Made by a program: the position numbers and the translations under genes. A stretch of 64,000 bases of DNA from Vanrija pseudolonga (Eukaryota > Basidiomycota > Tremellomycetes > Trichosporonales > Trichosporonaceae): the NCBI RefSeq assembly GCF_020906515.1, contig NC_085849.1, positions 4,464,001 to 4,528,000 on the forward strand, read 5' to 3'. The notes beneath the pieces were generated by a model that saw only the letters and a program-made list of their open reading frames with translations, was not told the origin of the DNA and searched no databases. Shown here one piece after another: positions 6,714 to 62,622 of this stretch. How positions within the stretch are numbered: position 1 is the first letter of the stretch; each line of letters begins with the position of its first letter.

Positions 6714-6953
6714 AAGTAATAATGAGCCGAGACATCGGCGTGTTGGCCGTAGACTAGTCTCAATGGATGAGCGAGTTGGCTCCAACCGAGAGAAACCTTG
6801 TTCTCCAATCGACGGGACACTGTGCCCCGTGGGCTAACGGGACTGACTTGGTGGCATGTGGAGTGCTCGAGCACAAACTACTTATACACGATTGGGGTGA
6901 GCGATGTCGGGAGCCCCACGGCTCTGATCTGATCGTGTTGTGCACCACTCGCA

Positions 6954-8963
6954 ATGCTGGCCCCAACAACAGTCGCAGCCCTCGCCCTCCTCTCCCTCGT
7001 CGGGGCGGCACCCACCGCACACGTCGTCGAACCCCGCGCCACACGGCCCGACGGCGCGGCCGGACGCGCCCCGCACCAGCCCTACCAGCACGGCTACAAC
7101 GCGAGCGGCATCAAGGCGTGGTCGGCGGACGCGGACCCGCAGGCGCGGTACCTGCGCTCGCGGGTACCCTTGGCCGCTCGTATCTCGCCTCTAGCAGCCA
7201 CACAGGCGAACCCCAGCCTCTCGCCCGCGGTCAAGGTCGTCGACCTGGCGCTCGACTACGACGGCTCGTTCTTCACGTCGTTCAAGTACGCCGACGACTT
7301 CTCGCGCCGCGTGAGCACGGGCTGGAGCTATGTCGACCTCTATGGCTCGTGGCACGGCATGCCTGTCGCTGGCAGCTCTGAGTCCACGCCCGAGCACGGC
7401 GTCGTCAACCTCCCCAATCCTGGCTGGACGGACGCCGCGCACCGTAACGGTGCGAAGAGCCTCGGGTGCTGGTTCTGGCCGCGCAAGGGCGTGTTTGGCG
7501 ACTACCTCGAGCAGAAGGCCGACGGCAGCTTTCCTGTCGCGGACAACCTCGTGGCCATGATGAAGTATTTCGGCTTCGACGGCTACTTCTTCAACCAGGA
7601 GGCGAGTATCTCGTCGTCCGACGCGGCCAAGCTGCTGCTGTTTGTGCAGTACCTGCGCAAGATTGCGCCGGTTATCGAGCTGCAGTGGTACGACGCGGTG
7701 CTGCCGTCTGGCCAGCTGAGCTACCAGAACACGGTGAACAGCCGCAACGCGCCGTGGCTGCTCAGCGGCGGCAAGCGCGGCGTCTCGTCCATCTTTGTCA
7801 ACTACTGGCTCGGGAGCGCGGCGCAGATCGACACGAGCGTCGCCACGACCACGGGGCTCGGGCTCGACCCCCACGGCGTGGTGTTCCAGGGGACCGAGTG
7901 CGAGAAGTACGGCTTCAACCCGGCATACGACCCGCGCATCTTCCTGCCCGAGAGCGCGCCGCACCGGATCAGCTGGGGGCTGTTCGGGAGCCACTTCACG
8001 TGGCGCGGGTACGCGAACCCGGACAGCAGCGCGCTGGCCGACGTGCAGGCGGTCGCGAAGCGCGAGCGGCAGTACTGGTCCGGCCCGAACTCGGACCCCA
8101 GCAGGACCGGGCGCACGACGTACGTGCCGTATGTCGACACCGGGGTCGGCCAGTCGCAAGACGACGCGACGAAGTGGGACGGCGTGGCGCACTACATTGT
8201 CGAGAAGAGCGTTATTGGCGGCTGGCCGTTCGTGACCCGCTTCAATACGGGCAAGGGCCAGTCGTGGTTCCGCGCCGGCGTGGCCACCAAGGGCGAGTGG
8301 AACAACATCGGCGTGCAGGACCTCCTGCCGACCTGGCAGTTCTGGGGCAACGCGACCGCCGAGTACGACTACGAGGTCGCGTTCGACGGCGGGAGCAGCT
8401 TGAAGGTGACGAGCGGGGGCACGCTGAAGCTGTACAAGACCAACCTTGTCGTCGGGGGCGGGGAGAGCGTGCGCCTCGTGCTGGCTGGCAGCGCGGCCGT
8501 CGAGGTGGGCTTTGCGGACGCGAGTGGGACGTACACTTTCCTGCCTGCGGCGAGTACCTGGACGAGCACGGCCATCGGCAGCACTTGGAAGAGTTACACG
8601 ACGACCCTGTCGGCGCTGAAGGGCAAGACGATCTCCGCCATCGCCCTCCGCTTCGCCAGCGGCACGACCAACGTCGGCGAGCTTGCCCTCGTGTCTGGCC
8701 CGCCGGCGGCCCCGGCCACCCCGAGCGGCTTCAAGATCGACAACACGTACCCCGCCAGCAGCGGCACCAGCGCCGAGGTGTTCCTCTCTTGGGCGCTCGA
8801 CAGCGCAGTGTGGTACTACGACATCGTGGTGAACGGCGCTGTGGTGGGCAGGATGTATGATGAGGTGTATTACCTCAAGAACGTCCCCAAGGGCGCCGTG
8901 GTCACCCTCGAGGCGGTCGCGCGGGACGGGGCGCGCAGCGCCGCGGCGAGTGTCACGGTGTAG
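6954..8963 (+). CDS. secreted endo-beta-N-acetylglucosaminidase, GH85
   Basis: A single open frame of 669 residues with an N-terminal signal peptide (MLAPTTVAALALLSLVGA). GH85 enzymes cut the chitobiose core of N-glycans between the two GlcNAc residues, leaving one on the protein. The central segment carries the family hallmark Phe-Asp-Gly-Tyr-Phe-Phe-Asn-Gln-Glu. Asn214 and Glu216 match the Asn/Glu pair used for substrate-assisted catalysis in this family. Other family-like blocks include a Trp-Phe-Trp-Pro segment and an Asn-Tyr-Trp strand-end motif. The last 200 or so residues look like beta-rich accessory domains, the final one resembling a fibronectin-type fold. Signal peptide and no membrane anchor indicate secretion, so it probably trims host or environmental glycoproteins (inference). 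It is intronless among intron-bearing neighbours and converges tail to tail with the oxidoreductase gene. Confidence 0.88.
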   Translation: MLAPTTVAALALLSLVGAAPTAHVVEPRATRPDGAAGRAPHQPYQHGYNASGIKAWSADADPQARYLRSRVPLAARISPLAATQANPSLSPAVKVVDLALDYDGSFFTSFKYADDFSRRVSTGWSYVDLYGSWHGMPVAGSSESTPEHGVVNLPNPGWTDAAHRNGAKSLGCWFWPRKGVFGDYLEQKADGSFPVADNLVAMMKYFGFDGYFFNQEASISSSDAAKLLLFVQYLRKIAPVIELQWYDAVLPSGQLSYQNTVNSRNAPWLLSGGKRGVSSIFVNYWLGSAAQIDTSVATTTGLGLDPHGVVFQGTECEKYGFNPAYDPRIFLPESAPHRISWGLFGSHFTWRGYANPDSSALADVQAVAKRERQYWSGPNSDPSRTGRTTYVPYVDTGVGQSQDDATKWDGVAHYIVEKSVIGGWPFVTRFNTGKGQSWFRAGVATKGEWNNIGVQDLLPTWQFWGNATAEYDYEVAFDGGSSLKVTSGGTLKLYKTNLVVGGGESVRLVLAGSAAVEVGFADASGTYTFLPAASTWTSTAIGSTWKSYTTTLSALKGKTISAIALRFASGTTNVGELALVSGPPAAPATPSGFKIDNTYPASSGTSAEVFLSWALDSAVWYYDIVVNGAVVGRMYDEVYYLKNVPKGAVVTLEAVARDGARSAAASVTV

Positions 8964-14891: not shown

Positions 14892-16171
14892 CTACTCCCT
14901 CTCCTCCCCGCGACACATCTCCTCGAGCTCCTCGACCTGCGCCACGATCCGCTCGGCACCCATAGCCTCAACAAGTGCGGGGTCGAACCCGGTCTGGTCA
15001 TGTTCGCGCGCGCCAGGAAGCGTAGCGGCAAAGAGCGAGCCGAGGCCGAGCGACTGGTCGAGGGGCGGCAGGCCGAGTGCCTCCATGACCATCGCAGCGA
15101 CGAGCAGCGGGGAAACCACCACGCCGGCCCACTCACCCTTGAGCTCTTTCTTCACTTGCTGACGCATGGTGGTCAGTTCTTGTCCGCGGTCTGCCGTCGC
15201 GTCCTCGTCGCTCGGCTGGCCGGTGTGCCAGTCGTACAATCGGAGCAACGCAGCCCACAGGTCGGACGGCGTGCCAGGCGTTCCGGCCGCCTCCTCCGCC
15301 TCGACTGCCCACCCTGCGCGTCAGCGTCACACCTGGGAGAGAGCACTTGCTGTTCACGACCGCGACGTCGACATACGGCGCCTTGTCTGCTGTCAGCAAT
15401 GCCCTGTCCACCTCGAGCTCACCGAAAACGCTCCCCGCCTCGGCGCTTGCCAACTCCTTGATGATGTTGGCCGCTACGTATGCGAACAGAGCGGCGACAA
15501 TGTCGCGCGGGAAGCGTTCCCGCACGTCCTCCTCGATCGCAGTCATGGCCTGCACCGCGCCGTCCGGGTCCCCGAACATGGTACGCACTGCGTTCCTCGC
15601 CGAACCGTTGAGCCACTTGTGCAGGCGCAGCAACGCCCTGTCCCTGATGTCCTGGAGAACGCCGGGGTGCGTGGAGCCAGCTGGACAGCGAAGCCGCGCC
15701 GCACGCGGAACAGGCAGCGCGAGCACGGCAAAACCGGGGACGGCGAGCGCGTCCTGGCCCGCGAGGAGGCCGCGCTCCTGCATTGCCTGGAGGGCAGAGA
15801 GCACCGTCTCGACGCTCGCAGCCACGCTCCACTCTCCGCTGGGGCCGTGCAGCGCGCGCCGGGCCGATGACCTGAGCTGTGTGGCGAGCTTGAAGACGTA
15901 CGCCGGGTCCGAGTCCACGCGGATTATGATTCCCGCCAGCCGCCGCGCGACGACGAGCTGCAGGACCTTGTTTCCTCCGTCCTGGTTCGAGAGCACAAAA
16001 TGTGCCAGCACCGCGGCGGTGCGCGCCGCTGCCTGGAGCCGCGGGCCGTCGGCCACCTCGTTCGGTCGACGTCTGTCACGGTGATTTCGGGCCTTGGAGG
16101 CTTGCGCCGGGTGAGGGAGGGCGGACGGAGGCAACGGGGGGTGAGGCGGGCGACTGGTTGTGCGGGAGCAT
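14892..16171 (-). CDS. orphan helical protein, tandem family member 1
   Basis: The family is not recognised. The secure part is two exons, about 16032-15351 and 15313-14892, joined across a 37-nt intron with a GC donor (GCAAGT...CGCAG). The most plausible start is the ATG at 16171, a 66-nt exon, then an intron ending CTCCAG before 16032; this gives 389 residues. An acceptor 24 nt earlier is an alternative, so the 5' end is uncertain. The protein is Ala/Leu-rich and probably all helical, with no signal peptide. Three blocks recur in the two neighbouring genes: Leu-Gln-Ala-Met-Gln-Glu, then an Ala-Ile-Glu-Glu helix, then Trp-Ala-Ala-Leu-Leu-x4-Asp-Trp-His-Thr-Gly. It is the first of three same-strand genes of this family. 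Function unknown. Confidence 0.65.
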
Positions 16172-16611
16172 GGCGCGTTGAGGGGTTGCACAGGGAATAG
16201 TTGGTGCGGTCTTTGGTATTGGACACTCGGTGTCGCCTGGGAGAGGCGAGTGGCTGGGTTAGGTGAGGCGGGGCTGGAGTCAGTTGGGTGTGGGTAACGT
16301 GCGCTGGAATCACAGTGAGTGCGGTGGAAAGTTGAAGGAACGTGTGCAAATGACCATGGATGTATGCAGCAGAACCAGGCGGCGACGCGCCCAAACTCGC
16401 AGTAGAAGATTGATCGTGTGTGTGGCCTCGTTGACACCGCGCGCGGTGATGGCGTCACGCTCACCTCCTCGCAAGGCCGATTCTTCTCACTCCAAAAACT
16501 CGAAACACCAGCAATCCATGCCCACTATAATATACAAGTAAATGGGAACACAAGGAGATGCATGCGCCCCAGCCCGACAATTATCGGAATTTACAGTGGC
16601 GCGTGGCGCCA
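16172..16611. other. spacer between orphan-family members 1 and 2
   Basis: 440 bp holding the promoter and 5' leader of member 1. A frame open on the minus strand across most of it has no ATG, so extra upstream coding sequence for member 1 cannot be excluded. Confidence 0.45.
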
Positions 16612-18071
16612 TCACGCTCGACACATCTTCTCGAGAGCAAGCAGCGTCATGACGCGGAACTTGACGCCTTTGCCCTCCAAAAGCGCGAGACCGGTGTAGT
16701 TGTTCCACTTTGCGCTGGCCAGCGTGGCGGGGTATAGCGTGTCGATGCGATATCGGCGGTCCAATGGGGCGCCACATATGGTCTTGTGCAGCTGGGCCGC
16801 GATGTCCGCGTTGCTTCCGCCTCCGCCACCGGTCGACGCGATCTCTGCACACTGCCTCTTGAGGCGCGACGCGAGACCCGAGCTCCCGGCTCCCAGACTG
16901 CCGGTGTACCACCTCATGAAGGTCATCATCGAGCTCCAGAGGGGCGGCGTGCCGCTGTTGATGGACTTCACCTGCCTTCCCCATTCTGCAGTCAGCTCAG
17001 TTTGTGGACGGCTCACTCACCCATCACCACTCCTCCTGGGACCTCAGCTGAAATGTCTGGTGTCAGTGACGTCGAGGAGTGGCGCATACCTTGGTCGCTG
17101 AGGCGCCTGTTTCGTGCCATGGCACCCATGAGTTCCGCCGCGAACGAGGCGTAGATTGCCTCGCAGAGGACCTTCGCCACGGCCGTCGACATGCTCGACT
17201 TGATGCGCTCTTGGATCGCTGCAATTTGCCCCACGGCCTGAGGACAGTCGGACATGAGGGTTGCGTAAAGGATTACCCCCTGTGCCGTGACGTAGTCGGA
17301 GAGGTGGGCCGCCGCGATAGTTTTGAGTTCGGCGACGAGGCGGGCGAAACGCGTCAGGTTATCGCCTGTATGAGGGTCGGCGGTGTCCGAGGCACCCTCA
17401 TCCTCTTGTTCCAGCACCAGGTGAGCCTCCATGGCAGGCGCCCACCGTACACCGAGGTGGGGAGATGTTGGGCTGACGGCGGCGAGCAAAACACGCTCCT
17501 CCATGGCCTGTATGACGACAAATGCGGCCCGCGCAGCCCGGAGGAAGTCCGACCCGCTGGTCGCTGCCTTGTCAAGGTACTCGCGCAGGACGCAAGCGAC
17601 AAACCCAGGGAAGAGGGGAAGCAGGTATGTCGAGCTGGAGGAAGGTGAGAGTAGCAGATCCGAAAGGCGCCGGGCAAACACCAGCCGGGGGAGCCCCGCG
17701 TTCCTCGTGTCGAGCGCGAAGGTGAACAGCATTCGCACGAGTACGGCTGCGCGGGTCCGGCGCTCCTCCTCTCCTCGCCACTGGGGTTCGGTCCAGTCCT
17801 GCACCGTGATAGAGGGGGCCGGCGGGGTGACGACGAGGAGTGGGATATTTGGGTTGTGCGGTGTGACGTTCGGCGTGTAGGGTGGTGTCGGCGGTCCGAG
17901 TGAGGGAGGGGAAGAGCTGTCCGAGTCCGCGGCGTACCCCTCGTCGTCGGTGGCGGGGCTGGAGCCGGAGTCGGATGAGGGGGCTGGACTGCTGGTGTAG
18001 GACGGGGGGTTGTGTAGCCGGGGAGTGACGTGCCACAGAGTCCGGACGTTGGGCTGGTCTGCGTTTGGCAT
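16612..18071 (-). CDS. orphan helical protein, tandem family member 2
   Basis: Three exons (18071-17090, 17047-17021, 16985-16612) join in frame to 460 residues; the middle exon is only 27 nt. The first 110 residues are Pro/Ser/Thr-rich and look disordered. The remainder is predicted helical, with Val-Phe-Ala-Arg-Arg-Leu-Ser-Asp and Ile-Gln-Ala-Met-Glu-Glu-Arg-Val-Leu-Leu matching member 1 closely. An Ala-Ile-Gln-Glu-Arg-Ile helix follows. The C-terminal block Leu-Trp-Ser-Ser-Met-Met-x3-Arg-Trp-Tyr-Thr-Gly is the clearest shared motif. No signal peptide or membrane segment is visible. A TATA-like sequence lies 67 nt upstream of the ATG. I recognise no named family, and no catalytic motif is seen. 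The tandem position and shared block order show descent from a common ancestor with the flanking genes. Confidence 0.75.
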
Positions 18072-18472
18072 GGCTGGTACGGTCGAGCTGGGTTGGTGTT
18101 GGTGGCAATGAGTCGGTGAGTGGGTGAGTAGAGAGCGAATATATGATGTGCAGTTCCGCGTGGGGCCGAGTCGCTCCATGCCTTCACCAGCGTAATGGGA
18201 ACGGCGTGTAACAGTCGGGAGATGTGTACAAACAACAGGAGCGCCGCGGAGTGATAGGATGAGTGTTGATGGCGAGGGGATTGGAACGGTACGGTCGGGT
18301 GGCAGGTGCCATCACTGCCTCGGTCGGTTGTTCTCCCCCGTACTGTTGAGTCCATCAGGGTATACGATGCCGCATTGTCTAAAGAGAGAGAACACAGACT
18401 ATGCAAGATGTCATTCTACGCAGATCTACGACACCTACACCCCCTCGACACAAATCCCCCTCGCGCGCCCCA
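18072..18472. other. spacer between orphan-family members 2 and 3
   Basis: 401 bp with the promoter of member 2, including an ATATATT element on the minus strand at 18138-18144. Nothing else recognised. Confidence 0.5.
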
Positions 18473-20161
18473 TCAATCCCGCCACACGACGCCACTCTCG
18501 CACGCGTACTCGAAGGTCCCCCACCGGTTCTTAATCTCGGTTGGGACGCCGTTCCGGTGGAGACGGAGTCCGGGAATCTGCCAGTCGGCCTTGACTTCCC
18601 CCATGTCCTCGGGGAAGAGGGAGCGCAGGCCGAACATGCCATCGAAGGGCGGGTATCGCATGGCAGAGAGCAACTCGCGCGCTACGTTCGCGCTCGGCTG
18701 CCCGCGCTTCGTGGTGGCACGCGCGCCGATACCCAACAGCTTGGCCTCCGTGTTGCGCTTGCGCCGGTCGTCGGTCCCGCTGCACCACTTGAGCAGGCGC
18801 GCCGCGGCGTGCCAGATCCCTGCTTCGGACTTGTTGGAGAGCAGGCGTGCCCCGGTGTGGCGGAACGCTGGAGGGTCAGCTTCGTGAGCTGTGGGTTCGA
18901 GCGCCAAAGCTCACTTTCTAGTACTGCCGAGTCGATGAGGGGCTCCCAATCTACATGGTTAGTCTGTGGAAGGAAGGGGACACTCACTGTCTTCTCCCTT
19001 GGCGAGGTGGGCGATCAACTCCACTCCCGGGCTGGCGTAGATCGCCTTCAAGACCATGCCCGCCCACACGTCGTCCATGCCGTCCTTGACCACCTTCTCA
19101 ATGCCGGCCATCTCGACCTGCACCTTGGCGTCCGCCTCGGGGCTGCCGAGCTTGGTGACCATGGACACCGCCCCGATACCCAAAACCTCCAGCAAGAGAT
19201 CCACCGCGTCAGCGCCGATCTCCAGCAGGGGGACGAGGAACTCGTGCCGCCCGTCCTGGATGCCGGGGTTGTTCACCGGGTTCTTGGGGTAGAGCGGCAA
19301 GCAACGGAACGCAATCTCGTACACCTCCCGCATCCCTTGGACGACGGTGATGATGGCTAGTGTGCGAGCTATGGGGGCCTTGCTGGTGCTGTCCCGGGAG
19401 GTCTTGACGAGGCGGACCTGGCGGTCAATGGCGCGCTTGAGGGCGCGCACGAGCTCCTTGGGGGGCAGGCGGGCAGGAGGGCCGTCGGGCAAGGCGACGC
19501 GGAGGACCACCTCGGCGATCAGGCGGCCGAAGAGCAGTGTGATGCGCGGTGGAGCGGTGCAGAGGTAGTCGAACAGATGTGGGATGAACGTGTTGATCCG
19601 TTCGACAATACGCGCGTCGTTTTCCTCCTGTGGCGTCATGGGAGCCGGGGGTGGGGGAGTCGGGAGGTGGCCGAAGGTGATCTTTCGCTGGGGAGGGTAG
19701 GCGCCAGGAACGGTCGGGGGTTGGGCTGCGCGCAGCTCCAGCATGTCCTCGAGCTCGGGCTCCACCCAGCGGTGGTAATACTGCGCCAGGAGGAGAGCGA
19801 AGACGGCGTCCAGGGTGGCCCCAGGGACGAAGTGAGCGACCGCCGCCACCGTGACGATTCGGACGAGGACGTGCAGGCCGAGGGCGAGGAGGGAGGTGCC
19901 GGGAATGAAGGATAGGATGTCCTCGAGGAGGATGACGAGGACCCCGAGGGCCAGGTAGAAGCCTCCCGAGCGGAGGGCGTACCGGAGGGTGTCGAGCACC
20001 GTCGCCGCGGACGGGAGAGAGACGTGGCGGAGAGCGGTGAGGTCGGGAATCATGCCGACGAGTGTGACTTGAACCATCCTGGTTCCTAGGAGGATGTACA
20101 GGAAGGCCTTGCAGAGCTGGTATGCGCTGCGGGCGGTGAACTCGACCAGGAGCTGGAGCAT
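18473..20161 (-). CDS. orphan membrane-anchored helical protein, tandem family member 3
   Basis: Three exons (20161-18988, 18950-18915, 18867-18473) give 534 residues; the middle exon is 36 nt. Unlike members 1 and 2, it starts with a hydrophobic region of about 125 residues containing three or four membrane segments (about residues 22-40, 69-89, 93-116). The shared family region follows. Val-Val-Gln-Gly-Met-Arg-Glu-Val corresponds to the Gln-Ala-Met-x-Glu block, and Glu-Met-Ala-Gly-Ile-Glu-Lys to the second helix. Ile-Trp-His-Ala-Ala-Ala-Arg-Leu-Leu-Lys-Trp-Cys-Ser-Gly corresponds to the Trp...Trp-x-Thr/Ser-Gly block. A Pro-rich loop (about 170-185) links membrane and soluble parts. The C-terminal 100 residues are longer than in member 1 and end Val-Val-Trp-Arg-Asp. 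No named family is recognised. Membrane attachment is an inference from hydrophobicity. Confidence 0.75.
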
Positions 20162-20878
20162 GTCTGTTGGGTGGTGTGGGTAAGGTGTTGGGGGTCAAAG
20201 TGGACGGAGTTTGGGAAGAGAAAGAGTTGCATGCACCCCCAAGGTATACCAGCGCTGCCCCCAGCTCGAGGGAGTGTTGGGGGCAGCTTGGACCAGGCAG
20301 GGCAGCATGTGTGTGTGTGTGTGGGCTTGCACACAACTGTCCGCGACGGCGAGGACGGCGCGAGGAGGTGGTGTGTGTGGTCGGCGTGGCCGCCACCCTG
20401 GCCATTGTGCGCGCCATTGTAATCCCAGCACTCGACGGCGCGTGGGTGCCCCAGGACGCTTGTGTGCACGCTGAATGCTGCTGATTGCAAGATGCGTGGC
20501 GCGGGCGTGTTGCAGCCACCACTCGCGTCTCATCCGCCTCGTGGCGTGGACGCCAGCCTCGCGCGTTCAGACCATGCATCCGTTGCATCCGGGCAATCTG
20601 CGACGTCAGCCCTCGCTGCCCTCGGTCACCCGAGACGCGTTTCAGCATGCCCGCCCTGGTCCTGCTGCGTCGGATCCAAACGGTTCCCCTCGGCGGCAAG
20701 CGCCGCCACTCACCAGTGTCAGTGAGACTCGCTGGAATGTCTTGGCACGCAAGCTTGGGTGACGACGAGCGCGGGGGGGGGGGGGTACTGAAGCACTTAG
20801 GGCTGCTTGCTCGCGGGCCCTACAACATCCATCCAGCTCGTCGACGTCTCATCCGCCCATCTTATCGCTAGCCTAGCC
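20162..20878. other. divergent intergenic region with a 13-G tract
   Basis: Shared upstream region of orphan member 3 (minus) and the glycosylated protein gene (plus). It contains a TG run near 20310-20322 and a run of 13 G at 20773-20785. I looked for an upstream signal-peptide exon for the plus-strand gene and did not find a convincing one. Confidence 0.5.
20773..20785 (+). repeat. G13 homopolymer
   Basis: Thirteen consecutive G residues about 95 nt upstream of the ATG at 20879. Confidence 0.9.
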
Positions 20879-21511
20879 ATGAGCAGCAATAGCAACATCA
20901 GCAGCAGCAGCACGCCGTACGTCCCCCTGGTCGGCGGGAGCATCTACGTGCCCACCATCGACGTCAAGATCACCGGCTCGAGCAGCTGCTTCGACGCCGT
21001 GTGCGGCAAGTACGTCGTCGGGCGGAACAGCAACAGCTCGAGCTGCTTCGGCATGCCCGTGTACTTCAACCACACGATCCCCGCTGCGCTAGCAAGCAAG
21101 AAATGCGCGAGCGAGGCCGACATCCACGTGTCGTGGGCGACCAACAACAAGACGGGCGCGCTGATTCCGTACATCACGAGCACGGACACGCACTATCCCT
21201 ACAAGTGTATCTTCTCCAACGGCGCGTGTGCCGGCGAGATCTGCAACCTCCAGCGCCAACCCGCCAACGCCACAAGCGACGGCAGGACAGAGTGCTACAG
21301 CGATCCGCTCGTCGCGATGCCTGCCCCGTGGCTGCCGAAACTCGCCAACGTGTCCGACCAGTGTGCGGGCCAGCCGGTGACCTGTGTCGTCGTCGATGGG
21401 CGCAGCACGCAGGAGTACTCGGGTGCGCTGGCGACGGCCGCGCCAAAGTCGCTGGTGCTGCTTGGCGCCGCGTCGGCAGCGCTGGGGCTCTTGGGCGTCG
21501 TTGGGCTGTAG
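20879..21511 (+). CDS. cysteine-rich, N-glycosylation-site-rich protein with hydrophobic C-terminus
   Basis: An open frame of 210 residues from the only suitable ATG (20879). It has at least five N-x-S/T sequons and about a dozen cysteines, the composition of a secreted or surface protein. The C-terminus is a hydrophobic stretch after Ser-Gly-Ala-Leu (Ala/Leu/Gly-rich, ending Gly-Val-Val-Gly-Leu), like a GPI-attachment signal or tail anchor. However, no signal peptide is visible: the N-terminus is Met-Ser-Ser-Asn-Ser-Asn followed by Ser and Pro. Either a 5' exon is missing from my model, or the protein is tail-anchored. No family is recognised. Confidence 0.6.
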   Translation: MSSNSNISSSSTPYVPLVGGSIYVPTIDVKITGSSSCFDAVCGKYVVGRNSNSSSCFGMPVYFNHTIPAALASKKCASEADIHVSWATNNKTGALIPYITSTDTHYPYKCIFSNGACAGEICNLQRQPANATSDGRTECYSDPLVAMPAPWLPKLANVSDQCAGQPVTCVVVDGRSTQEYSGALATAAPKSLVLLGAASAALGLLGVVGL

Positions 21512-42918: not shown

Positions 42919-43833
42919 GGTGGTGGAGGTGGTGGGCATTGGCAGCCAGTGGACGGAGAGCGGTGAGCGGTGGACGGAGAGAGAGAGAAAGAAGCCGAGG
43001 TCGGGTTAAGCGGAGCCGAAGCGAGCGAGCGAGGGTCATTAGTCTGCAGAGACGAGGTGTATGCAAGAGTAAACAAGGTCCTGAGGTGCTTGCATCTGAG
43101 TTTTGTGGGCGGATACCGCGCGGGCTGTGCCAAGGCGGCCGGTAAGTGGGCCCGCATCGGCGCAGGGAACCGACCGCCGACCGAGACATCCCTGGCAGAT
43201 TCAACCACCTCAACGCCGGTCCAGGCGGACGAGGGCAGGACACCAGAGGTGGAGATAGGCAACTTCGAGGCGGCGGCGACTCAGGAACGATGCGCGCAGC
43301 ACTCTGCAGTCTCGACGCCTGGAGCCGGGTTCATCCAACTCTCATCCGCTCTCGAGCTGGACAGTTCAAGTACAACCAGCGTCGTCCTCCTTCTCTGCGC
43401 ACAGCCCTTTCCCCGTTCGCTTGGCCCTCGAACGCCGTCGTGCGAGTGAGGCCCAGCGGAGGCAAGGCCGCCTGCTGCTGATGCTGATGGCGACAGATCC
43501 CTTGCTCAGGAGATGCCGGCGCTTCCATTCATGGATCACCCGACGCAACTGACCTGTCTGTTCAAGAGGTCACCGAGTCGTTCGTGCGCGCGCATAGCGA
43601 GGCGAGGTTTCCGAAGAGGTTGTGCTGCTTGCTGTCTGTCTGTTTTGCATCCACTCTCTCTCATCATCTGCAGCGAGGATAGCGAGTCTGCTCGACAACA
43701 CCCAGCTTCATCTATTACATAACTGCTCCGACGCTCCACAGCTTGTGCCGCAGGTTGGAGCACAGTGCCGACAAGCAACAGCTGCGAGCGTCTCTTGGTG
43801 TTGCAATATCGCCAAGACAGCCAGAGGACGATC
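42919..43833. other. intergenic region upstream of the first Zn2Cys6 regulator
   Basis: 915 bp. 3' flank of the transporter gene and promoter/leader of the regulator starting at 43834. Contains GAGA and GCGA runs near 42955-43035; no gene seen. Confidence 0.5.
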
Positions 43834-46606
43834 ATGCCGAAGATTGAGAAACCTGATGTTCGGGCCGCGTCGTTTGGCGCAAGTCGTGAGTTGCTGGAAC
43901 GATGAGTGGCCTTCGCTGACCCCCCAGGCGCCTGCGTGAGCATCTTGTAGCTCCCCGCCCACCCACTGACTCCCCAGGACACCTGCCATCGGATGAAGAT
44001 CCGGTGTATCGACCGCGCGAACCCGCCATGCCGGCGCTGCGCAACCATGGACATCCCATGCACCTTCACGCTCGAGTCGACGCCGTCGTCGTACAGGATC
44101 AAGAGCAACCAGGAGTGCGTCGCCCTTTGCTGAGCCAGCTGACGCCCCCCAGCCGCGTGGCCCACCTCGAGAACCAGATGGATGTCGTGCAGTCGAGCAT
44201 GAAGAATGTCGAAGCGATGTTACGGACGCTGGTCGAGGCTAAAACGGGGTCGGGGTCCGCGTCGGCGGCATCCAAGCAGTCGCCGCGATCCGGCTCCTCG
44301 TACCGCTCCGGCTCTGCGGCCCCGACGGCGACCTCGACGCCGATACCGCCCGATCTCCCGCCTCCAGGGTGGGCACAGCTGACGGCATCTTCGGCGAGCC
44401 CGCACGCAGGCTCGAACAGCACGCCGGGGAGCGCGATGCCAGCATCAGCGGTGCGGCGCGGCTCGGCTCCGCAGCAGGCGGAGCGGGCGGGTGCCCCCGA
44501 GGAATCGGAGGATGAGGACGACGACGAGGCGCTCAAGGCCTCGCCGATGCGCCACATCATCTACCATGAAGAGGAGGAGCGGCGGCGCACACAGGAGGTC
44601 TCGGGCACGCGCTCAACGCTGGACGACGACGACGGCAAGCCACCAGCGTACCCGCTCAACTCGTTGCTCTTCCAGCGCGACGACCTCCAGCCGCACGAGT
44701 ATCCCGACCCCGTGCAGCGCGGGTTCTGTACCGAGCAGGAGGGGCGGCACTTGTTTGAAATGTACGTTGCGGGTGGTGGGAAGGGGCTGATGGCAGGTAC
44801 TTTCAAGGCGCGCACGCCTTCTTGCCGGTCTTTGATCCGCTGTACGACACTTGGGACAGGTAGGTGGCGCGCGGTGGCCGGTGACACTAACGGCAGCCTT
44901 CGCGCCAGGTCGCCCTTCTGCATTACTGTCATCATGATTGCTGGACAGCTCGCCATGTCCGGAAATGGTGAGGTTGTGGGTGGTGGAGTGAAGCTCATGG
45001 CGCAGGTTATCCGTCCTCTGGGAGCACGCTGCGGAACAAGCTGGTTCGGTATGCCGAGAAGATTGCGGCTGCGACCCTGTTCACGCCAGTCGCGACCCTT
45101 GAGACCGTCCAGGCCATGTGTAGGTGCCATGCAGCGGCCGCCCCAGCTGACATACAGTGGTGCTGACCAACTGGGGTGACCGAGACTGGCGCGCAGGGAG
45201 TGAGTGGCGCCGCGAGCTTATGAGCGACAGCTAACAACATCGCAGATCACACCCTCAGCTTGGCGTGAGCGTCTCTCCTTGTCGATGGCCTGTCAACTAA
45301 CACGGCCCACAGCTACGAGCTCGACCTCCACCTCTGCCTCCCGCACCTAGCGCGCTCCGGCATGGGCGTGGGCAAGTCGCCGGAAGAGCTCGAGAAGGAG
45401 CGGCCGCTAGTCAACGGCGCACGCGTGTGGCTCGCGACGCTCAAGACGCACAACGAGATGTGCGGGACGCACGGCCGACCAGTCCAGTGCGACCGCGACG
45501 AGTCGATCAAGCTCGGCCGCCTGTTCCTCGAGCACCCACTCGCGACAAAAGACGACAGCCGCTGCATTGTCCTCAACGAGGTCATGTCCTTCCGCGCGCC
45601 GGTGCAGCTCGCGCGGCGGCAGGGCGTGACGGGCCGCACGATGGACGGGATGATCGACGAGGTCATCCAGAACCTCGAGGTGTGGGAGAGCTTCTGGCTT
45701 GAGTATTACGGCAAGATTGGCCTGTCGGACGACGACTTCCTCGTGCAAGAGCTGAGCACGATCAAGAACTACGCCACGTAGGTGACTGCTTCTGAGCGCA
45801 CTGACACGCCAAGACTGCAGAACAACAATGCGCGCATGCCGGGCGCCATCACGAAACGCGACATCCAGCGCATGCCGAGCGACAGGCGCGACGGCCTCAT
45901 CTCCGCCACGCGCGCCGCCGCACGCCTCGTCGCCCGCGCCGCTAGGGGCAGCGAGACCGCCAAGATCCGGTACGGTAACCGTAACGTGCGCCTCGGGTTG
46001 GCCCACGCGGCGCGGTACCTCATCCGCATGGCGAGCCTGTTTCCCGAGGCGATTGATCGGCGGCAGGCGGCCAAGGACGTCGAGCTGCTCGCCGACGAGC
46101 TGTCACGATGTAAGCCCCCTTGTATGTGACGCCCCTGACTTGCCCCAGTCCCCGACTTCCACTTCTCCCACTTCCTCCGGCGCGTGGTCGCCAAAGCACG
46201 GAGCAACCGCGTCATTCCCGCCGCTGGCTCGTCCCCGCCCCCCCAGCAGCAGCAGGTCCAGCCGCCCGACCACGTCCCGCAGCCCATCGTGCCGGACACG
46301 ACGCCGCCGCTAGACTTCGACTTTGCGATCGCGGACAACATCTTCGCGACCGAGGACTGGATGAGCATCATCGGTGGGGTGGGGAGCGTGCCTCAGCCTC
46401 CGCAGGCGGCGCCCATGCCCTCCGGCTTCCCGTTCATGCCTATGCCGCCTGCCGCGCAGCAGTTCCAGCACCAGCACCAGCACCAGCACCAGCAGCACCA
46501 GGTCGCGCCGGCGCCGTTCTTCGCCGGCACGTTCGACACGTCCATGAGCCAGGGCCCGGACGGCACACCGTATTGGGACCAGAGCAAGCAGTTCTGGCCC
46601 CATTAG
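43834..46606 (+). CDS. Zn(II)2Cys6 transcription factor 1
   Basis: Twelve exons join in frame to 777 residues: 43834-43885, 43928-43935, 43978-44114, 44153-44761, 44797-44859, 44897-44967, 45006-45119, 45158-45199, 45246-45264, 45313-45777, 45814-46109, 46149-46606. The binuclear zinc cluster is Cys-Asp-Thr-Cys, six residues, Cys, seven residues, Cys-Arg-Arg-Cys, six residues, Cys. Its first cysteine is encoded by the 8-nt second exon. A short coiled coil (Val-Ala-His-Leu-Glu-Asn-Gln-Met) follows. The fungal-specific factor domain begins at Glu-Gly-Arg-His-Leu-Phe-Glu-Met-Tyr-Phe-Gln-Gly-Ala-His. The C-terminus is Pro/Gln/His-rich, including a (Gln-His)n patch, and looks like an activation region. 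It is a paralogue of the regulator at 57036, which confirms most splice choices. Nuclear DNA-binding regulator; target unknown. Confidence 0.88.
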
Positions 46607-47312: not shown

Positions 47313-48597
47313 TCACTTGCGCTGCCAGAAGGAGACCGAGTAGTCGTCCCACGGCACCTCGATGCGGGGGTACACGTGCTCCTTGTACTCTGGGAGCTTC
47401 TCCTCCCACTCCTTGGGGAAGTCGCGGGTGAAGTCGCCTGGAGCCTGTCAGCAGCGGGGTGGGATGACCTGACAGATACTCACAGTAGATGTAGCCGCAC
47501 TTGCCCCAGCCGCAGCCGACCTGGGTGTAGCGGGGGTCGGAGATCTGGTGGTCAGCGACATGCTGGCAGCGGAGGGCAGGGTAATGCTTACGATCGTGAA
47601 GTGGCCCACGTCCTTGCCATTGTTCGCACCGTTCGTGTTGTAGTTGTACTCCTCTGCGCCGTGTCAGCGTCGACCATCGTCGGACTTCCGCCTCGCCCGC
47701 GACACCCCGACTCACTGCCTTCGACCATCCAGCGGTCGATGGTGTGCTTGGCCTGCCAGGCAAAGTCGGTGGCCTTGACCTCGCCGCCCATCGTGTCCCT
47801 TTTGTCGTCAGCCATGCCTGACACCCTTGTGCAGGCCGGGGGACTTACATTACCTGGCCGTGGATGCCGGGGGGCATGAAGTGCTGATACACACACTTCT
47901 TGGCGTGGTCGATGGCCCCCTCCGAGAGGGTCTGGTTCCACTGGACCGGCGGCGCGCCCCACACCGAGCGCCACTCGTTGAAGCGGCTCACGAAGAGCTG
48001 CGCGATCGGGTCGCTGGCGGGCACGGTGTCGGGGCCGATACCGACCGAGCCAGGCGGGAAGACGACGCTGTCCACCGTGGGCTGCTTGCCGATCGGCGCA
48101 GGCAGCGTGGGCTTGACGTTAGGGTCGAGGAAGCGGTCCTCGTCGGCCGTCTTGGGCGGTGTGTAGTTCGGGTTCGTGGCGGCAGCGTTGCTGTTGCCCG
48201 AAGGGATCGGTGCGGGCGCCGCCGAGGCCGAGGGCGACGGGGCCAGCGAGGGGGCGGCAGTGGGCGCTTCGGAGGGCGAGGTGGTCGCGTCCGAGGACGA
48301 GGACGGGGGAGCCGAGCTGGCGCTCTCCGACAATGACGCGGCGGACGAGCTGGCCGACGACGACGACTCCGAGGGGACCGGCGACGGAGCCGACGAGTTA
48401 CCAGCACTCGTCGAGGGGGCTGCGGTGGGCGAGACCGCCACCGGAACGCCGACAGTGGGGGCCTGGCTCGAGTTCGAGCTCGAGCTCACCACAGGCGAGC
48501 TGGAGCTGGAACCGCCGGGGCTCTTGGGCCGGCACTTGGGCCGCGCGGCTGCGGCGGTCGAGACGAGGGCGGCGAGGATGAGCGGCGAGAACTTCAT
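47313..48597 (-). CDS. secreted CAP (PR-1/SCP) domain protein 1
   Basis: Five exons (48597-47849, 47798-47716, 47653-47592, 47544-47484, 47437-47313) give 359 residues. A signal peptide (MKFSPLILAALVSTAAA) is followed by about 140 Ser/Pro/Ala-rich residues, then a CAP domain over roughly the last 155 residues. Family features are Phe-Asn-Glu-Trp-Arg near its start, Cys-Val-Tyr-Gln-His-Phe, Val-Gly-His-Phe-Thr-Ile (CAP1-like) and Val-Gly-Cys-Gly-Trp-Gly-Lys-Cys-Gly-Tyr-Ile-Tyr-Cys (CAP2-like). Fungal members bind sterols or lipids outside the cell. The Ser-rich stretch is probably O-mannosylated. A tandem paralogue lies 0.7 kb away on the same strand. The exon 1/2 acceptor (AAAAG) is weak but keeps frame and homology. 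Confidence 0.87.
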
Positions 48598-49282
48598 GGC
48601 GGGAACGGAGCGTGAGTGAGCGGGCACCGGGTCAGCTGGGAGAAGGGGAGCACCAGGCTCTTGGGGGTTAAGTATGTAGGAGACAGACAGCAGCAGGAAA
48701 GCAGGAAAAGCCTGCAAGCAAACAACACCGACGACAGGCGACGACGCGGTGTAGTCTTGGCAACGACGAGGAGGAGTGGGCATGGATGTCGTACGCCGCC
48801 GGCGTGTTGCCCACGAGACCACAAGAGGTTGGCTCAGCGACGAGGAGGTTGAGGGCATGACGTTTCAGCAGCACGGTGAGTGACCTGAGCACTGGTGCAC
48901 AAGGAGAACAGAAGCAAAAGGCGGCTGTAGCCTGGACCTGGGACTTGATCCGGGGTAGTAGTGACAGCCTGGCCGCTCCTCAGGGCCAAACGCGAGGACA
49001 CGGGGTACGCTGGGTCGGGCTTGACGACACGACGCGTCGGATGTGCCGCGCCGGGGGAATGGAGTCGTGCGCGCTTACGGCGTCTCCAGGACCAGCATGG
49101 GGTCGTAGTCGCGTGTGCAGGGGGCGCTGGAGCCGCCTGGAGACTCGAGGTAGCTTGTCCCCTGGCTTCCTCTCGCCTTTCCAGTGGTCCCAACGTGTGT
49201 TGCATAGGAGGAAACGAGGTACGAATGGCAAAGTCAACCTACGACCGGCGCAGGGCTACAATCAATATCAACACCGCTCGAC
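48598..49282. other. spacer between the two CAP genes
   Basis: 685 bp with the promoter of CAP gene 1. No separate gene seen. Confidence 0.5.
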
Positions 49283-50386
49283 CTAGAACGCGTTGCGGTA
49301 CTCGTCCCAGGGAATCTCGACCTGGGGCCACACGTGCTCCTTGTAGTCGGGGACGTGCTCCGAGAAGATCTTGGTGTAGTTCTTGGAGATGTCGCCTGGG
49401 GGTTCAGTCAGTCGTCGGCCGGCTTGACGGTGGCATCGACACATCACTCACAGTAGATCTTTCCACAGCCGGACCAGCCGCAGCCGACCTGGTTGGTCAT
49501 GGCGTCGGTGAGCTGGGAGAGGTCAGCACTGGGTCATCGACACCACTCACAATCTGCCAGTGACCGACGTCCTTGCCGGACATGCCCTCCTGCTTCTCAA
49601 AGTCCCAGAAGCCTGCTTGTCAGCGACAGTCTTCGCCGGGAAGTACTCACGGCCCTCGACGAACCAGGCGTCGACCCAGCGCTTGACCATGTAATCCATG
49701 TCGGCGTTCGTGATGTCGCCTCCAAACACAGCGACCTCGCCAAACTCGCCGTGGTTCATAAAGTGGCGGCCCTGGCACTCCTTCGCATAGCCGACCGCGA
49801 AGCCGGAGATGGTCGAGTTCCAGAAGAGCGGCTCGGCCTGGTACACCGAGCGCCACTGGTTGATGCGCTCGAGCATTGTCTTGGCGAGCGGGTCGTCGGC
49901 GGGGATGTCGCCGGGCGGGTTGAGGCCCACCGAGCCGGGCGGGCTGATGATGCCGCTCACCTGCGGGTCGGGGCCGAGCGGCGTCGGCAGCGAGGGCGTG
50001 ATGCTCGGGTCGGAGAAGACGGTCTGGTTGGCGACCTTCGGCGGGTTGTAGTTGCCGCTCGGGGCCTTGATCAGCGCGTTGCCCGTCGGCGCGGCCGAGG
50101 CCGAGGCGGAGGCCGACTCGGTGGACGACGAAGCCGACTCGCTCGAGGCCGGCGCGCTCGACGCAGGGGCGCTCGAAGACGCCGCGTTGGCCGTGGGCGC
50201 GGCGCTCGCCTCAATCGGGGTGCCCAGAGCCGAGGGCGCCGGCACCGCCGAACCAGTCGGCGTGGCCGAGCCGCTCGCGCTCACGCCCTTCGACTTGGCG
50301 CGGCACTTGCCCGTGCCGTCGCGGCGCGTCGGGGCGGCCGAGGCAGCCGATACGAGGGCGAGGAGGATGAGGGGCGAGAACTTCAT
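49283..50386 (-). CDS. secreted CAP (PR-1/SCP) domain protein 2
   Basis: Four exons (50386-49651, 49612-49551, 49512-49452, 49395-49283) give 323 residues. The signal peptide (MKFSPLILLALVSAASA) nearly matches that of CAP protein 1. A Ser/Ala-rich linker of about 90 residues precedes the CAP domain, which has Ile-Asn-Gln-Trp-Arg-Ser-Val, Val-Gly-His-Trp-Gln-Ile and Val-Gly-Cys-Gly-Trp-Ser-Gly-Cys-Gly-Lys-Ile-Tyr-Cys. The last three introns sit at the same positions as in CAP gene 1. CAP gene 1 has one extra intron, after His-Gly-Gln-Val-Met, where this gene reads through a longer Gly-Glu-Phe-Gly-Glu-Val segment. Likely extracellular lipid or sterol binding by family analogy. Confidence 0.88.
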
Positions 50387-52021
50387 TGTGTGAACGAATG
50401 TGGTGGTGACGCCGGGTCGAGCGAGTGTGGGGTCAGAACGCCAGGTTCTGCAGACAAACACGAGAGAAGGGGGATGAAGAAACAGGTCAGAGGTGGGTGC
50501 TCGTCTTTTCCTTTTGTTTACGAGCGCGACGAGGGGGTCAGCTGCACGTCGAGGAGTGCATCCCGTAATGCGTTTCACGCGACAGAGAAAGCGCGAGAGA
50601 CGGTGAGTGCGGGGAACATAAGGTTGCCATCTGTCCCGGGACACTGCGATTCCGTGCCGGTGATGCAAGAGGAGAAGCATTCGAAGGATGGAGGCACGAT
50701 CCCCCGGTGGAGTTAGCAGCAGCCTGCCGAGTCTCAGAGGAGGTCAGGGAAGATCTGCGACGCGCGCGAACATGGTTGACGACGGGGTCGCGTCGGATGA
50801 GATACGTCGGGCCGCGTTGTGCACGGGACCAGTTGTCTGCTGTTCGAGGAGGATCTGGCCTGCAAGGGGGGCACAAGGGGGGGACAGCATGAGCATTTCG
50901 CCAGCATCCTACCTAGGCGCGTTTCATGCACCACTCTGACTTTGTGGGCAAAGTGCGGGCCCTCGTTTCTATGTGAAGGGTTGCCGAACGACGCACCTGG
51001 CATTCTGACACTGTTGTCAACAAAAACATTCGCGTGGGCTCAGGTTAGTCGGGCTAGTTGTGGCAGCTACGCCCACCTAAGTCCCGCTCGTTGACTTGGA
51101 TCAGTGGAGGCTAAAGAACTTGACGATGCAAATTACAACGCCAATTAGAACTCATTTGTTTTTGTTTTTTGGGCCAATTCATTTGTCTTGTTTTGTGGGC
51201 TGTTTTAGAAACGTTATCCACCTCCATATCTCTTCTCGACGACGAGCCATGCATGAGGTATCAGGCCGCCTTGAACCACGCGTAGACCGTCAGCCATCGC
51301 TCCCACTGAGCTTTGTTTGTTTGGTTCATCAAGAGGCCGAGGAATGGCAGCATGGGGTTGGGCTTGGGTGGTGGGGCCCGATCACGTGTTTACCACACAA
51401 CGAGACATCCATCCACCCATCCAGGCGCCCAGATAGCATGCTGACGATGTTTACACCCCGCGGCGCCCGTCTTCAGCATACCCCGCCTTGTCCGTGCCCT
51501 CTCCACGGGTTACATAACTCGGTCGTGTGCTCTGTTGCGTCTGGGCGGTGGGTGGGGTGGTGGGTGGGGGTGGGGTCAGCGGGGTATGCCAGTCTGGGCG
51601 GCGCGTGGGCGACTAACTACTAGCCGGCATTGACTTTCCAGCCACTGACGCTTACGCGCCAGTGAGTGATTACCCAGTAAATGGCGGTTATCTATCCCTT
51701 GGCACTAGGCTTACTCCAAGGTAAGCAGTTGTGCAGTGCACTGTGTGGGGTCCGCATGGAAGTAAGGATCCAGCATACTCCAGCATGCACCCTGGCACAC
51801 CGCGTTCCACCCACGCCGGCGCAAACACCTTCCACCCACCCATGCAGCCACCCACACGCGCACGCCTCGACGTGGCGGACTCGACGCCGACTCGACGCCG
51901 AGCAGCATCCGCGCCGCCACTGATGGGACTTGCATGGGTGTGGCGGCGAGAAATGGTATAAAGACAGGACGTGCGTTGACAACGAGAAGAACTCACAAAC
52001 TTCCTGACACACACCGCAATA
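50387..52021. other. divergent intergenic region, 1.6 kb
   Basis: Promoters of CAP gene 2 and the desaturase gene, with TATAAA at 51957-51962 for the latter. A stretch at about 51110-51220 is unusually AT-rich for this window. No gene recognised. Confidence 0.5.
51957..51962 (+). promoter_or_regulatory. TATA box of the desaturase gene
   Basis: TATAAA, 65 nt upstream of the ATG at 52022. Confidence 0.65.
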
Positions 52022-54008: not shown

Positions 54009-55757
54009 CTACGCGCTGTCCGAGCCTGCGTCGCGAGTGGTTTCCTCAATGACATCGACCTTGGTCGACTTGAACTTCCAAGCTGGGGTGCGGCGCTCGA
54101 ACAGAATGTCCAGCTCGGCGTAGGTGAGTCCCTTCGTTTCGGGGAGGCGGAAGATGCACCAGATGAGGGTGAGGACGCAGAAGCCGAACCAGACAAAGCC
54201 AGTGCGGCCCTTCAGGTTGAGAGCGGTCGCGTTGATGAGGTAGGGCTGGAAGGACACCCCGATAATGCAGCAGATGGTGTACCACAGACGCGCGAGGGCG
54301 ATGGTGGGGGCACGCAGCTTGGTGGCAGACACCTCGGCGGCCAGACCGAAGGACTGAGGTCCGAGGGTCGCCGAGTAGGTGCCCAGCCAGAGGACGGTGA
54401 GAGCAGCCTGGGTCCAGACGACGCTTTGAGCCGAGTTGAAGTAGTGCAAGATGCCGATGATGAGGAGCTCGAGACCCATGAGGACAAACCCAGCAATGAT
54501 GAGGGTGCGGCGACCAAACCAGATTGCAAGGATCCACGAGAAGACGGTTCCGACGAACGCCACGGCGGTGGAGCCAAAGTTGAGCTTGTAGGTGTTGTCC
54601 GCACTGAGACCACTGTAATGTGTCAGTGAGGGCGAACAAACCTCGGTGGGCGACTTACGCCTGGCGGAAGAAGTAGGTCGAGCCGTAAGCGAAGAGTTCA
54701 CCAGAGAGGGGCTGAGCAGCAAGGACCATGCAGGCAATCTCGGTACGGCGGCGGTCGACGCCCTTGAAGCAGTCGAGAACGGTCGTGCCGACGCGGTCAG
54801 CCATCTCCATGGCCGTAGTGTGCTGGTACATGGCGAGCAGCTCGCGGGTCTCGGAGTGGGTCGACTTGGGCGAGAGCTTCTTGACCGAGCGCTCAGCGCC
54901 GGCCATGTTGCCCTTGCGGACGCACCACCACGGGGAGTCGGGGGCCCAGAGGGTGAGGAAGAAGACGGGGACACACCACACCCATTGGAGGCCGAACGGG
55001 ATGCGGAACGACCACTCGCTGGGGATGTTGACCAATCCCGCGAGGAGGCCTCCGGCCACGAACTGTCCAATAACCCAGCAGATATTGACGAACGAGGTCA
55101 GGAAGCCGCGGAGGGCGAGCGGGGCGACTTCAGAAGCGTATGCCGAGCCGAGGATGCCGAACAGGCCTTGGGGGATACCCGAGAGGCAGACACCGGCCGT
55201 CAGCCACTTGATGTTTGGCGCGCTGTGGCGGTCAGCACGGTGAAGCCGATAGCAACTCACAAGAAGGTGAGGAAGTTGGTGGCGACAAGCATGGCGAGAC
55301 CCATCATGATGACCTTGCGGTGGCCGAAGCGCTCGGTGACCAGACTCATGCCGAAGAGGCCGATACAGCTGCCAAACATGTTGAGGTTGGCGAGCATGAC
55401 CATGGTGTTGGCAGGCACGTTGTAGTCGTTCTGGGCTGGGTTGAACTCGCCATACTTCTTCGCAAAGGACGGGTACGCGTAGAACTGGGAGAGGAGGTAC
55501 GTGTCGTACCCGTCCATGATGATGGTGAAGCTGATGGCGATGGACCAGAAGAAGGCCCAGGGGTACGCGCGCGCGGCCTCGCGGAAGCTGAGGGCGTGCT
55601 CGCGCTCGGTCGCCTTGCGCACCGCATGGGTGTAGTCTGACGCGTCGGCCAGGTGGTCGAGGTCGATCGTGTCGACTGTCGGGCCGGAGCCGGGGGACTT
55701 GGTCACCTCGACATGGTCGAAGTGGGTCTTCTCGTCGGAGGGCGTGTAGGATGCCAT
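54009..55757 (-). CDS. MFS sugar transporter 1 (alpha-glucoside/maltose permease type)
   Basis: Three exons (to 55261, 55222-54659, 54612-54009) give 554 residues from the ATG at 55757. A further in-frame ATG at 55781 lies only 22 nt from the TATA-like element, so 55757 is preferred. Sugar-porter signatures are Glu-Arg-Phe-Gly-His-Arg-Lys in loop 2-3, Phe-Gly-Arg-Arg in loop 8-9 and Leu-Pro-Glu-Thr-Lys-Gly-Leu-Thr-Tyr-Ala-Glu-Leu-Asp after helix 12. The N-terminal segment and Met-Asp-Gly-Tyr-Asp-Thr-Tyr-Leu-Leu in helix 1 fit the Mal/Agt1 branch of fungal H+ symporters. The substrate is probably a disaccharide or glycoside (inference). It is divergent from the second zinc-cluster regulator and resembles the transporter at 60116. 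Confidence 0.88.
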
Positions 55758-55802
55758 ATTGTCGGGGCCGGTGGAGAGCATTACTCAGCACCTCGACAGG
55801 CG

Positions 55803-55808
55803 CTTATA
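55803..55808 (-). promoter_or_regulatory. TATA-like element of sugar transporter 1
   Basis: TATAAG on the minus strand, 46 nt upstream of the ATG at 55757; it helps decide the start. Confidence 0.5.
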
Positions 55809-59778: not shown

Positions 59779-60115
59779 TTCTGGACTTCATGCTTGATAT
59801 ACTCGTCCATCAGCGATCTGCTGCATCGGGCGCTGGCAAGTGACGTGTATGCATGCGCCGTGTGATGCTTACAACGCACATGAACTGCCACTTCGTACAT
59901 GTGTGTGTGTTGTGTGTGTGGCGTGGCCTGTGGCCCGAGTACATCCAAAACCATTCATCGCGGTCCCTATCTCCTCGAGCTACTCATTTCCTGTTGCTAC
60001 TTCAACCCCTGCATTGACTGTTACCTTTGCCCTCTCCTCACTTGAGCCTGAAGTTCACTCGCTCCTTGACGCGCCTCACGTTGATTTCACCGACGAACCT
60101 CTCGCCGAGGGCCCC
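59779..60115. other. convergent 3' intergenic region
   Basis: 337 bp between gene ends with a short TG repeat near 59900-59920. No gene seen. Confidence 0.5.
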
Positions 60116-61814: not shown

Positions 61815-62256
61815 GCTGCGAAGAAGGTCTGCTGCGGATGAGGCCGGGAGAGCGTAGTTCCTGGATCTGCTGTTGATTTCGTTTGCGCTCGTGAGGAGCT
61901 CGGTTGCGCTCGTTCGAGGTGCGGAGAGCTCGCTTGGCGACTGACTGCCCTGCTCCTCGTCGTCGCGATGCCCGTTTTAAACCTCTACTCGTGGTGGCCC
62001 GTGGGGAGCATCGCAGTCACTCCGCAGAGTCGATCTGGGGTGTGTAGAGTGAACAGCAGAGCCATGCTCGCTACCGTCGTCCTTGTCGGCGCCGACAGAC
62101 TTGTCCAAGATCAGGCACGGCCTCGAGGGTCGAAGACTCGGACATCGGGAGGCGGCTTTCTTCTTCGTGAATGGGGGCCACGCGGGGGGGCTGCTGAGGG
62201 GCCAGAAGCAAAGGTCAGCATATACGAGGATTGATGGAAGAGTGGACAATATTCAC

Positions 62257-62425: not shown

Positions 62426-62622
62426 CACGGACGGCGACGTACCGAGTTCGCATCCATCGCGCGCCGCTATCGAATGCTTCGGCCCGTCCACTCTGGTGAT
62501 GGCGATAGCGCGTGCCTCGTGCATGGTCGCAGACACATATAGCAGCGATGTCGGCCTCGACGACGACGACACTCCCACCACCATCAACTCGACATTGTGA
62601 AGACGACCAAGACCTCGACACA

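Follow-up and report, generated by a model that had tools for sequence, protein, structure and literature searches.

The locus described here raises the question of what kind of protein family is encoded by three adjacent genes, M3, M2 and M1, which are arranged head-to-tail on the minus strand between positions 14892 and 20161 of a 64,000-nucleotide stretch of Vanrija pseudolonga DNA, and whether these genes represent an array in rapid turnover or an old, retained set. The window, i.e. this whole stretch (G000:C1:4464001-4528000), was taken from a 24.87-Mb, nine-contig genome, and roughly 250 kb separate the triplet from the end of contig C1 (4,733,269 bases). The most likely working picture is an old, conserved helical set with one membrane-anchored member, which perhaps acts as a tether or adaptor.

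A preliminary description of this DNA had reported three sequence blocks shared in the same order by the three genes, and both the blocks and their location at 14892-20161 were confirmed. The first block reads QGMRE in M3, QAMEE in M2 and QAMQE in M1. The helix of the second block (AGIEK, AAIQE and TAIEE, in the same gene order) is present, although its earlier wording as Ala-Ile/Gly-Ile was slightly off and [AT]-[GA]-I-[EQ] fits better. The third block is represented by WHAAA..WCSG, WSSMM..WYTG and WAALL..WHTG. Smith-Waterman scores of 183 (M1-M2), 100 (M2-M3) and 75 (M1-M3) exceeded the means of shuffled sequences (about 39, standard deviation 4.8-5.7), and for each of the three pairs none of 500 shuffles reached the real score. 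The last-exon open reading frames (ORFs) of M1 and M2 alone matched each other with a BLASTP E-value of 5e-7 over 64 residues, and a three-row alignment of the last exons contains invariant W...W..G and P.D columns. Because whole-pair scores exceed the shuffles and the last exons match, the similarity extends beyond the three blocks. Identity within the triplet is 20-28%, varying with the alignment. As judged by these comparisons, M1, M2 and M3 are paralogues of common ancestry and old tandem duplicates.

The models of the three genes also have a common exon layout, in which two phase-1 introns of 35-47 nucleotides (nt) flank a micro-exon of 36 nt in M3, 27 nt in M2 and 24 nt in M1. M3 (20161-18473, 534 amino acids if started at 20161) is composed of exons 20161-18988, 18950-18915 and 18867-18473 with introns at 18987-18951 (37 nt) and 18914-18868 (47 nt). 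M2 (18071-16612, 460 amino acids) has exons 18071-17090, 17047-17021 and 16985-16612 with introns at 17089-17048 (42 nt) and 17020-16986 (35 nt). M1 (16171-14892, up to 373 amino acids) has body exons 16032-15423, 15381-15358 and 15313-14892; its proposed introns at 15422-15382 (41 nt) and 15357-15314 (44 nt) are the least certain of the three sets and weigh less, since the splice sites were picked to preserve the frame. The shared layout is firm for M2 and M3. Skipping of the micro-exon could leave the frame intact. The intergenic gaps within the triplet measure about 400 and 440 bases. GC contents at third codon positions (GC3: M3 0.86, M2 0.77, M1 body 0.81) and second codon positions (GC2: 0.44, 0.53 and 0.49) are consistent with coding.

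Protein searches, in which 7,998 (M3), 7,995 (M2) and 7,995 (M1) candidates were scored, yielded one relative each: P0001 for M3, P0002 for M2 and P0003 for M1. All three come from one source, where the contig carrying each of them is 43,851 bases long, so that they very probably lie on one contig. They also settle the minus-strand assignment of M1-M3. In exon 1, M3 shares 241 of 350 aligned residues with P0001 (69%; 67-69% across comparisons, residues 37-391), M2 198 of 326 with P0002 (61%; 60-61% across comparisons) and M1, for the body only, 142 of 200 with P0003 (71%). Since 61-71% identity to orthologues stands against 20-28% between paralogues, the duplications predate the species split and each copy was kept. 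On this sequence evidence the locus is an old triplet retained one-to-one rather than an array in rapid turnover, and the rapid divergence of a local array proposed earlier was not supported. According to a study on Cutaneotrichosporon species, of the order Trichosporonales, chromosome synteny between them is strongly rearranged (PMC10568926). Retention of the triplet is worth noting for this reason, even if tight linkage would be a sufficient explanation by itself.

No fourth copy was found in own-genome searches with M1, M2, M3 and P0001, which score best candidates only, so that very distant copies could escape. The protein search requires shared 5-residue words. Restriction of the family to this lineage is compatible with our searches, to which distant fungal homologues are invisible. 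Among IMG/VR contigs 37 stretches fitted the pattern, as did 69 among the bacterial and archaeal genomes of GTDB, and tblastn confirmed none of either set.

Within Pfam, NCBIfam and PDB-sequence searches, M1-M3 form an undescribed-looking helical protein family. Pfam hmmscan of M1-M3 (E up to 1) and of P0001-P0003 and the M3 N-terminus (E up to 10) listed no MUN, DIL, exocyst or COG family and, for M1-M3 and P0001-P0003, nothing below E 0.09. NCBIfam gave nothing below 0.07 for M1-M3, P0001 and P0002, and phmmer with M2 and M3 singly against PDB sequences gave nothing up to E 1. Profile searches reached best E-values of 1.8 with exon 1 of all three genes and 0.45 with the last exons, none of them credible. 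An own-genome search with PF06292 (MUN) was uninformative, as it returned no match even for controls. The statement of the preliminary description that no known family can be recognized was borne out within these searches, and the profile search of the three proteins leaves the novelty of the family standing on that count.

AlphaFold models were computed for exon 1 of M3 and M2 only, from a six-row input alignment. Their confidence is low, with a mean pLDDT (predicted local distance difference test) of 47.7 and a pTM (predicted template modelling score) of 0.35 for M3, and 55.5 and 0.44 for M2, in which residues 241-320 reach block means of 72-90. The models predict seven helices both for the M3 core (18989-19639, minus strand, approximately residues 175-391; helices 177-202, 205-222, 234-254, 261-286, 299-338, 341-361 and 364-387) and for the M2 core (17091-17792, minus strand, residues 94-327; helices 94-119, 127-141, 155-172, 176-199, 233-274, 276-293 and 296-326). 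The helices of M2 and M3 correspond, because aligned starts coincide: M2 residues 94, 155, 276 and 296 are aligned in sequence with M3 residues 175, 234, 343 and 364. As both models share one alignment, this agreement reflects consistency and no independent test. The earlier proposal of a helical family fits these low-confidence models, which are all-helical with the same helix order, and a model-based all-helical core can be assigned to M2 and M3.

No Foldseek match of the M2 and M3 models reached E 0.001, and none did so when the M2 model was compared with viral structures. Foldseek's own candidates, of which 951 (M2) and 980 (M3) chains were aligned, were then re-ranked by VIA. For M2 the list was headed by the Myo2 tail (11.1; root-mean-square deviation (rmsd) 4.0, 197 residues) and Munc13-1 (9.0-9.3; rmsd 4.8-8.1), followed by Munc13-4 (8.2) and Sec10 (8.1) and, lower, by Sec8, Sec6, COG, an exocyst chain and M-Sec. 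For M3 it contained Munc13-1 (11.8 and 10.8), the Myo2 tail (10.1-10.5, five entries), the Myo4 tail (three entries) and M-Sec (9.3). Tether-class structures made up 12 of 50 rows for M2 and 11 of 50 for M3, and one structural class heads both lists. The aligned ranges start at residue 100 of M2 and residue 175 of M3, which fall on positions 1165 and 1163 of Munc13-1 and 1166 and 1159 of Myo2. M2 residue 100 corresponds to M3 residue 181 in the sequence alignment, so that the shift is about 4 residues on Munc13-1 and about 1 on Myo2, if gap-free. According to a paper on Sec10, M-Sec, the myosin-V tail and the MUN domain share the topology of the CATCHR class (complexes associated with tethering containing helical rods; PMC5241887), and a CAPS/Munc13 review extends this class to Myo2 and CAPS (PMC3849599).

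In the three proteins unlike N-termini precede the helical core, after which come the micro-exon and a last exon that encodes about 123-140 residues. In M3 a hydrophobic region (19781-19981, minus strand, approximately residues 61-127) is conserved between M3 and P0001 and probably forms 2-3 membrane-embedded helices. Hydropathy, with 19-residue means of up to 2.26 in M3 and 2.08 in P0001, backs the membrane segments noted earlier for this member. Next to this region come the sequence QYYHRWVEP, which is conserved, and a linker rich in Pro. M3 may also start at Met37 (20053), giving 498 amino acids; the ORF of P0001 begins at this position, and M3 residues 1-36 may thus be outside the protein. 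M2 carries a Ser/Pro-rich, predicted disordered N-terminal tail (17796-18071, minus strand; block-mean pLDDT of 28-42 for residues 1-100) with the conserved start MPNADQxNVRTLWHVTPR and the motif DEGYAADSD, and its identity to P0002 amounts to 0.9 in residues 1-20 and to 0.8 in residues 41-60. M1 has only a short tail.

Taken together, we tentatively favour tandem CATCHR-like rods that would act with the membrane-anchored M3 as a membrane tether or cargo adaptor, and assign this explanation a rough probability of 0.28. The three genes would have descended by old tandem duplication from one helical-rod protein, whose core would be a CATCHR-like rod, a fold shared by exocyst and COG subunits, the Munc13 MUN domain and the myosin-V globular tail. 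Hydrophobic hairpins at its N-terminus would insert M3 into an internal or the plasma membrane, and its rod would extend into the cytosol. M1 and M2 would be soluble rods packing side by side with M3, and the conserved disordered tail of M2 may form an arm that docks or is phosphorylated. The three proteins would then jointly constitute the tether or adaptor.

Two observations weigh against this assignment: CorA rows outnumber the tether class in the VIA list of M3, and the top VIA rows are partly ties. The alternative, in which M1-M3 form a family of helical scaffolds in fungi that has no relation to CATCHR proteins, with M3 membrane-bound and M1 and M2 as soluble partners in an unspecified process, has a chance close to even. 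The likeness would then reflect common antiparallel-helix packing in poor models, in line with the low pLDDT, the absence of Foldseek matches at the threshold above, the lack of a sequence-profile link to CATCHR proteins and the high ranks of unrelated CorA, CRM1 and CNOT1 structures. It accounts less well for the first 7 VIA rows, which belong to one structural class for both M2 and M3, and for the near-identical range starts on Munc13-1 and Myo2. An array that evolves fast and serves recognition, incompatibility or stress, close to the idea of the preliminary description, appears very improbable. The low identity and unlike termini of the paralogues and further duplicated gene pairs in the window would suit such an array, whereas the one-to-one orthologues with 61-71% identity over aligned exon 1, the lack of extra copies in own-genome searches and the absence of any Pfam match to a recognition or death domain leave a recognition or stress role unsupported.

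Apart from function, the 5'-end of M1 (16033-16171, minus strand) raises the question whether this gene is intact. P0003 runs in a single frame from MLPDTRSPSPP through EITVTDVD to PRLQEAA. The M1 counterparts MLPHNQSPASPP, EITVTDVD and PRLQAAA are spread over three frames from 16171 to about 16033, of which the tblastn match tracks one only. Frameshift decay, an assembly error or small introns may be responsible. From the three frames M1 might be taken for a recent pseudogene, with M2 and M3 as the working system in this species. We consider this rather doubtful, as the remainder of M1 is open and coding in composition (GC3 0.81), and its body shares 71% of residues with P0003. The 5' pieces could also be joined by removal of two GT-AG introns (35 and 38 nt), although the second would remove orthologue-like coding (VADGPRLQ in M1, ASDRPRLQ in P0003), and the assembly may be in error here.

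Six of 10 nearby ORFs scanned had Pfam matches, namely glycosyl hydrolase family 85 (6933-8960, plus strand, E 6e-56), a GFO/IDH/MocA oxidoreductase, a PF02458 transferase and a thiolase on one flank, and a major facilitator superfamily transporter and an M24 peptidase on the other. None of these matches indicated a shared pathway. A Cys-rich ORF at 20801-21511 (plus strand) without Pfam match has many N-glycosylation-like sites and a hydrophobic C-terminus and possibly encodes a cell-surface protein. Farther away on the minus strand, a gene block seems to have been duplicated, since the ORFs at 43539-46392 and 57128-59809 match one another in unchanged order (72% over 47, 52% over 62 and 47% over 217 residues); the ORFs 58964-59809 and 45772-46392 have no Pfam match. 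Beside it are two sugar transporters (PF00083) at 54012-55803 and 60119-61976 (minus strand), 41-53% identical in matched stretches. Two neighbouring CAP-domain (PF00188) ORFs with Ser/Ala-rich stretches at 47848-48864 and 49550-50743 (minus strand) are 45% identical over 117 residues. An ADP-ribosylglycohydrolase domain (PF03747, E 5e-53) is encoded at 62509-63999 (plus strand) in an ORF extending to the window end.

Several known systems may be compared with the triplet. A resemblance of the M3 N-terminus to the membrane-shaping TB2/DP1/HVA22 (REEP/Yop1) proteins, whose hydrophobic hairpins end in a Y...P motif, failed Pfam and shuffle tests and was dropped: the N-terminus has no Pfam match, including PF03134, and against the two members in the genome M3 scored 23-33 with shuffled means of 26-28, 105 to 861 of 1000 shuffles reaching the score. 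M1-M3 differ from proteins with a myosin-V globular tail (Myo2, Myo4) in that they have no motor or DIL profile match, and the separate DIL-domain matches of the genome are located on C3 and C1. The DIL-domain protein of the genome matched 18 PDB sequences, all myosins by name. At G000:C3:2485000-2488500 (L021) a DIL-domain ORF adjoins an ORF that by eye resembles ankyrin repeats, possibly a DIL-domain protein without myosin motor.

Helical-rod tethers are usually regarded as ancient and widespread in eukaryotes. The triplet has no Pfam profile in common with the Munc13 MUN domain or CATCHR subunits (exocyst Sec6, Sec8 and Sec10; COG; M-Sec). It is unlikely that the three paralogues, as CATCHR-type rods of which one is embedded in the membrane, make up a previously undescribed fungal tethering complex, a small and self-contained tether that arose by local duplication and not from the ancient exocyst/COG set. 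If the fold reading is true, a possibly lineage-restricted branch would be added to the helical-rod tethers, together with a small, tractable locus for the origin of a multi-subunit tether through tandem duplication. If it is wrong, the locus remains a clear example of a yeast gene family, as yet without a name, whose three members were all retained through the split of two species. Compared with the MUN and CATCHR tethers, M1-M3 measure only about 350-370 residues from core start to C-terminus, and they are encoded by three tandem genes, one member having membrane segments of its own.
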